Assembly: GCF_000316685.1 (NCBI RefSeq)
Contig: NC_019680.1
Location: 1-64,000 of the forward strand
Reading direction: 5' to 3'
Length of the DNA stretch: 64,000 nucleotides
DNA from: Synechococcus sp. PCC 6312
GTDB lineage: Bacteria; Cyanobacteriota; Cyanobacteriia; Thermosynechococcales; Thermosynechococcaceae
Every line of letters starts with the position of its first letter. The stretch's first letter is position 1. This document shows positions 1,566-2,291 of the stretch, one piece after another. The position numbers and the translations under genes were made by a program. The notes beneath the pieces are model-generated. The model saw nothing but the letters and a program-made list of their open reading frames with translations. It searched no databases and had not been told where the DNA came from.

Positions 1566-1761
1566 TGTGGAAAAGTGCCTATTTTCTGTGGAAAACCTTG
1601 GGAAAAACCTGTGGAAAACATGAAGGAGTTGTGGAAAAAGATTACAAAATTTAATGTCCTGTGGAAAACTTACCTACTTTATCCACAGGTTTTCCACAGG
1701 CTTAAAGTGGTTCAATCCCTTATGGAAAGAGACTTTCAAAAAGTTTTCCACAGTTTCCACA
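1566..1761. other. oriC: Replication origin (oriC) DnaA-box cluster
   Basis: Nine 9-mers match the DnaA-box consensus. Five read TGTGGAAAA (1566-1574, 1587-1595, 1610-1618, 1630-1638, 1660-1668). Four are in the opposite orientation: TTATCCACA (1679-1687), TTTTCCACA (1690-1698 and 1744-1752) and GTTTCCACA (1753-1761). The orientation switch near 1670 makes the two groups face each other. The cluster lies 38 bp after the dnaA stop codon. Open reading frames across it (for example 1575-1850) are low-complexity artefacts of the repeated boxes. Known DnaA-box biology makes this a strong origin call; GC skew was not computed. Confidence 0.92.
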
Positions 1762-1765
1762 GGCC

Positions 1766-1777
1766 CTACTACTACTA
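1766..1777 (-). other. DnaA-trio repeat beside the origin boxes
   Basis: Four perfect CTA triplets on the plus strand read TAG TAG TAG TAG on the minus strand. They sit four bases (GGCC) after the last DnaA box at 1753-1761. Box, GC-rich spacer, then 3'-GAT-5' trios is the order of the basal unwinding element described in Bacillus subtilis. An AT-rich stretch follows (about 1778-1850), a plausible unwinding region. The arrangement is read directly; the function is inferred by analogy. Confidence 0.7.
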
Positions 1778-2291
1778 TAAGAAGATCTATTTATCTAGAA
1801 TTAGTAGATCAGAGACTATTAAAAAAAGAAAATATGCGGTTATGTTCTAGTGAACTGCTTAAGTCAGGATTGTGCATTGAGGTAGTAAATTCTTTTGTTC
1901 TTAAATCAGGACTGAGCCTAGAAAACCTGGAAACTGCTTTGAAGATCGGAATAAATTTTTTCAATCTGCTGAGATTCTGACTCGTTATCCCCAGTTGAGA
2001 TCTTGGCCTGTGGAATTGTTGAATGTAGAGTCATTTCTGCGCCTGTTGAAGATGGGTTGACTCCCCTGAAGATACATTTTCTTGTTCGCCCAAAATCAGG
2101 GGGCTTAAACGGGCAGCTAGACGTGAAATTAAAAATCACCCAGGCCAAAAAAAACTGCCCATAGCTGATCTCGATTAAAGAAAAAGCTACCGACAGTGAC
2201 CGTTAGAGTTTTAAGTTTGGGAATTAGGGCATTCTTGACTCAGATAACGCTTAAGATTATCTCAATATCTCACTTGAGATCATAGGTGAAC
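1778..2291. other. Gene-free stretch: AT-rich unwinding candidate and spacer
   Basis: Positions 1778-1850 are AT-rich and follow the DnaA trios, so they are the likely DNA unwinding element. From 1851 to 2291 I see no convincing gene. A minus-strand frame (1918-2148) and a plus-strand open stretch ending at about 2178 both lack a ribosome binding site and recognisable homology. I see no tRNA, terminator or repeat here. Confidence 0.5.

Follow-up and report, generated by a model that had tools for sequence, protein, structure and literature searches.

The DNA just downstream of dnaA in Synechococcus sp. PCC 6312 very probably contains the chromosomal oriC, at positions 1566 to 1807 of the window (the whole 64,000-nt stretch analyzed here), with a basal unwinding element (BUS) that DnaA would open; this assignment draws on the sequence and on analogy with known origins. 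Its layout is that of an ordinary BUS-type oriC, well conserved and of a kind already known from cyanobacteria. The initial annotation had called the arrangement rarely pointed out in this phylum, which is overstated, since unwinding by Synechococcus elongatus DnaA of its own BUS was reconstituted in vitro in 2021 (Pelliciari et al. 2021, PMC8287927).

The intergenic region between dnaA and the peroxiredoxin gene spans 764 bp and holds DnaA boxes, a GGCC spacer, DnaA-trios, and AT-rich DNA (Table 1); the stretch from 1778 to 1850 is 74% AT. Five boxes on the minus strand are followed by four on the plus strand, and the two groups face each other. These nine boxes, the GGCC, the four CTA repeats, and the AT-rich DNA had all been described in the initial annotation as lying directly after dnaA; the sequence bears out that description, and the first box begins 38 bp past the dnaA stop codon. 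The assembly also exceeded chance by far. Eight exact boxes were observed against 0.03 expected, with a maximum of 2 in 2000 dinucleotide shuffles of the 764-bp region, and none of the 2000 shuffles produced (CTA)4 on either strand. A box followed within 0 to 16 bp by CTACTACTA occurred at a single place in the 3.72 Mb genome (reversed control, 0), while the other genomic box pairs (2919857/2919878 and 353802/354110) had few boxes and no trios.

Table 1. Features of the proposed origin and the adjoining gene (window positions).
Feature	Position	Strand	Evidence
dnaA (481 aa), next to the origin on its upstream side	82..1527	+	Pfam DnaA_N, Bac_DnaA, Bac_DnaA_C
Distal DnaA boxes, TTTTCCACA x5	1566-1574, 1587-1595, 1610-1618, 1630-1638, 1660-1668	-	Exact matches
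Two DnaA boxes, 11 bp apart	1679-1687 (TTATCCACA), 1690-1698 (TTTTCCACA)	+	Box search
Proximal tandem BUS boxes	1744-1752 (TTTTCCACA), 1753-1761 (GTTTCCACA, one mismatch)	+	Box search
GC-rich spacer GGCC, 4 bp	1762-1765		Sequence
DnaA-trios CTACTACTACTA, (CTA)4 on + = 3'-GAT-5' x4	1766-1777	trios on -	Sequence
AT-rich core, presumed unwinding region	1778-1801		Composition; alignment with Thermosynechococcus-like origins
Short mirrored trio array TAGTAG, no adjoining box	1802-1807	+	Sequence; alignment with related origins

Other features of the region were minor. Two open reading frames overlapping the origin (1575–1850 and 1654–1980) appear to be chance frames running through the boxes. An Rfam scan of the whole window returned two tRNAs only, and neither an Rfam match nor a convincing gene was found in the approximately 440 bp that separate the origin from the peroxiredoxin gene (1851–2291). 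Two further exact TTTTCCACA boxes, on opposite strands, lie within dnaA at 857–865 and 1173–1181.

Published rules for a BUS call for a box with no more than two mismatches, located no more than 16 bp from the trios, and a minimum of three NAN trios, most of them GAT (Pelliciari 2021, PMC8287927). In the window, GTTTCCACA is 4 bp and TTTTCCACA 13 bp away from the first trio, and all four trios at 1766–1777 are GAT. The BUS order proposed in the initial annotation was present in full, with a tandem box, a GC-rich spacer of 4 bp, minus-strand GAT trios, and AT-rich DNA. By analogy with Bacillus subtilis and S. elongatus, DnaA would bind the tandem boxes at 1744–1761 and then be guided over the GGCC onto the minus-strand trios, where the DnaA oligomer would stretch and open the AT-rich DNA rightward so that helicase can be loaded. 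The distal boxes, five in number and facing the proximal ones, would probably meet them via a DNA loop. In B. subtilis, distal boxes act at a distance through a loop, whichever way they point and with helical phasing (PMC6669920), and the minus-strand group of the window is likely to work in the same manner. Box spacings in the window, such as 21, 20, 11, and 9 bp, are fairly near whole helical turns.

Conservation of the trios in relatives, which had been set as a test that could refute the initial annotation, was found both within the family and well beyond it. A box, 4 bp, and CTACTA (spacer fixed at 4 in the pattern) occurred in 27 of 29 family genomes. Across cyanobacteria, a strict three-trio pattern that allowed spacers of 1 to 12 bp was present in 166/390 genomes, nearly always at a single place, and its reversed control was nearly empty. 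In a collection of 112 loci from 64 genera that kept spacers of 4 or 5 bp, the spacer was 4 bp in 109. On average, 6.5 of the nine box positions of the window recurred within one base per genus in these loci, compared with 0 for the opposite-strand control. Conservation was 45–68% of genera for each of the five distal minus-strand positions (±1; opposite strand, 0), 80% and 89% for the plus-strand boxes at 1679 and 1690, and 95% and 100% for the proximal boxes at 1744 and 1753, the last position being part of the search pattern. A separate element of the unwinding region, TTTAAA in the 50 nt after the trios, was conserved in 49 of 64 genera (12 in shuffles), and the window lacks it.

The DnaA protein is intact (E 8e-134, 450 bits against the DnaA chain of 8btg), and a DciA match was found in all family genomes but one, the window's genome being among those with a match. 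Wherever the flank of a family or class locus was long enough, dnaN came after the trios in the same orientation, and dnaA lies upstream where it is still linked; the order dnaA, oriC, dnaN is therefore probably ancestral. The exceptions were the window's own genome and genera g10 and g11, the latter two with neither dnaA nor dnaN within about 1.5 kb of the trios. The dnaN gene of the window's genome has moved 0.66 Mb away, to C1:657224-658321, and the origin therefore kept dnaA and lost dnaN. Several relatives in which the module seemed inverted and placed ahead of dnaA proved, once the orientation of the loci had been corrected, to share one constant order (dnaA, boxes, trios, dnaN).

The window's origin resembles the incC BUS of B. 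subtilis in having two box sets, a GC-rich spacer, and GAT trios on one strand, all downstream of dnaA, and differs from it by the cyanobacterial box TTTTCCACA, four perfect trios, and the absence of dnaN next to the origin. Helicase operators also differ, DciA being found in the window's family as against DnaD, DnaB, and DnaI in B. subtilis. The origin of S. elongatus (Pelliciari 2021; Watanabe 2012) belongs to the same phylum and uses the same box, but its oriC lies near dnaN in a chromosome with regular skew, whereas the window's origin has kept dnaA, lost dnaN, and sits in a chromosome of irregular skew.

This irregular or flat skew is one observation counted against the oriC assignment, as the pattern has been linked to DnaA independence in other cyanobacteria (PMC7198777); the missing TTTAAA is another. 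Sampling across the chromosome (43 samples, mostly 20 kb) gave no significant two-arm GC-skew profile (permutation p 0.65), and the cumulative minimum fell at roughly 3.61 Mb, some 87 kb away from the origin. Because this chromosome has no V-shaped profile, GC skew, which the initial annotation had proposed as a check, cannot test the origin site and speaks neither for nor against it. Irregular skew has been tied to loss of DnaA dependence in other cyanobacteria, and 'Synechococcus sp. PCC 6321' was named as an irregular-skew exception among clades with V-shaped skew (Ohbayashi 2020, PMC7198777). Two related complete genomes with intact modules likewise gave non-significant profiles (permutation p 0.95 and 0.09), so that flat skew may characterize the family as a whole instead of marking a loss. 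The strain name 'PCC 6321' in that paper may be a misprint for Synechococcus sp. PCC 6312.

The same skew could be taken to mean that the site is a relic, in a chromosome that replicates without DnaA like that of Synechocystis or Synechococcus PCC 7002 and in which the boxes persist only as DnaA-binding or regulatory sites. Several cyanobacteria do replicate without DnaA (PMC7198777). A relic should lose its trios and phasing, yet here the nine-box spacing, the 4-bp spacer, and the trios fit the class consensus with no sign of decay, and in the two related species whose modules are intact the skew profile is not significant either. We consider a relic very improbable and retain the assignment of a DnaA-opened oriC.

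Across the AT-rich core from (CTA)4, the window carries TAGTAG, which chance would give in this 50-nt stretch with a probability of about 2–4%. At the same place, all ten Thermosynechococcus-like (g11) origins examined have (TAG)3-5, and in most of them the alignment extends to the following ATC. Genus g11 is probably Thermosynechococcus, because Thermosynechococcus records in the cross-bacterial scan described below carry the same sequences. TAGTAG followed the trios in 7.3 of 64 genera (genus-weighted) versus 1.6 in shuffles, with 0 for the reversed control GATGAT, and (TAG)3 did so in three genera (weighted 2.3 of 64) versus 0.05. Chance could nevertheless have produced the two repeats of the window, which have no box alongside and are missing from a near relative (G017); taken alone, they are weak evidence. 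Set against the aligned arrays in ten of ten related origins, the ATC that follows in most, and the excess over shuffles, we regard a chance origin as a serious possibility that falls short of being probable. Two further observations concern the Thermosynechococcus-like origins (L091–L100): GATC clusters lie just past the mirrored trios, and most carry minus-strand boxes, frequently spaced by 21 bp, about 220–290 bp to the right of the last left box.

A scan across bacteria, with one genome per species and the pattern box, 4 bp, (CTA)3, 10–40 bp, TAGTAG, returned 75 loci spread over many phyla; most of them contain further boxes and lie beside dnaA or dnaN. As these 75 were chosen by TAGTAG in the pattern, they give no frequency for it, while facing boxes were outside the selection. 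Within 50 nt on the right-hand side, 15/75 loci carry a box that faces left, and one carries a box in the other direction. Nine Ktedonobacteria (L188, L195, L199, L208, L215, L218, L223, L234, L242) had a full mirrored BUS in the order AAAGTTATCCAC..CCACA, about 4 bp, (CTA)3, AT-rich core, TAGTAG, and one or two boxes facing back (TGTGGA..GTGGATAACTTT). At L188, dnaG is nearby, with no dnaA or dnaN match in the 8 kb examined. The window departs from this mirrored (double) BUS in having TAGTAG only and no adjacent right-hand box. Box-less mirrored forms also occurred in Thermosynechococcus, Thermus, Binatia, and others. TAG trios with a facing right-hand box were seen at L216, L226, L175, and L177 (Fermentibacteria, Atribacteria, Rhodothermales), and L216 and L226 are nearly palindromic, boxes included.

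The facing boxes of the Ktedonobacteria suggest DnaA loading on both strands. Tentatively, and at less than even probability, we propose from the sequences that some bacterial origins bear facing DnaA-trios on both strands across the core, that DnaA holds both strands and marks each for a helicase, and that the window has a short version of this design. With one DnaA oligomer on each strand, growing toward its counterpart, both strands would be held and each could receive a helicase directed to it. The main rival is that the mirrored CTA and TAG arrays form a DNA hairpin or cruciform instead of DnaA sites on both strands. When two mirrored origins, related or distant, were folded as single strands, they far surpassed shuffles (z -4.8 and -6.7), as a hairpin would predict, but the window's own version folded no better than shuffles (z 0.49). 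Repeat numbers are unequal between the sides (e.g., 4 versus 2, 5 versus 2, 4 versus 5), and in the Ktedonobacteria the DnaA boxes are mirrored as well, beyond the TAG array, which a hairpin would not need. We regard a hairpin as less likely than not.

Placing of the second helicase on the opposite strand has been described as unresolved (PMC10721633, PMC10201434). A known element for comparison is the B. subtilis DnaD recognition element, which is likewise strand-specific, located in the unwinding region, and proposed to place the second helicase. DnaD binds that element, which is complementary to the trios, whereas the mirrored TAG repeats are a separate array across the core that would putatively bind DnaA. 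A literature search with incomplete journal coverage found no published description of trios on both strands.

For the window's organism, these results describe a class-wide conserved cyanobacterial origin design in a flat-skew genome, that is, an intact DnaA origin separated from regular skew, two features usually assumed to co-occur. The mirrored arrays matter more than the BUS-type oriC itself. If the proposal is true, trios on both strands would offer a simple, DnaA-only answer to the placement of the second helicase, one that could be tested by the existing strand-separation assay.
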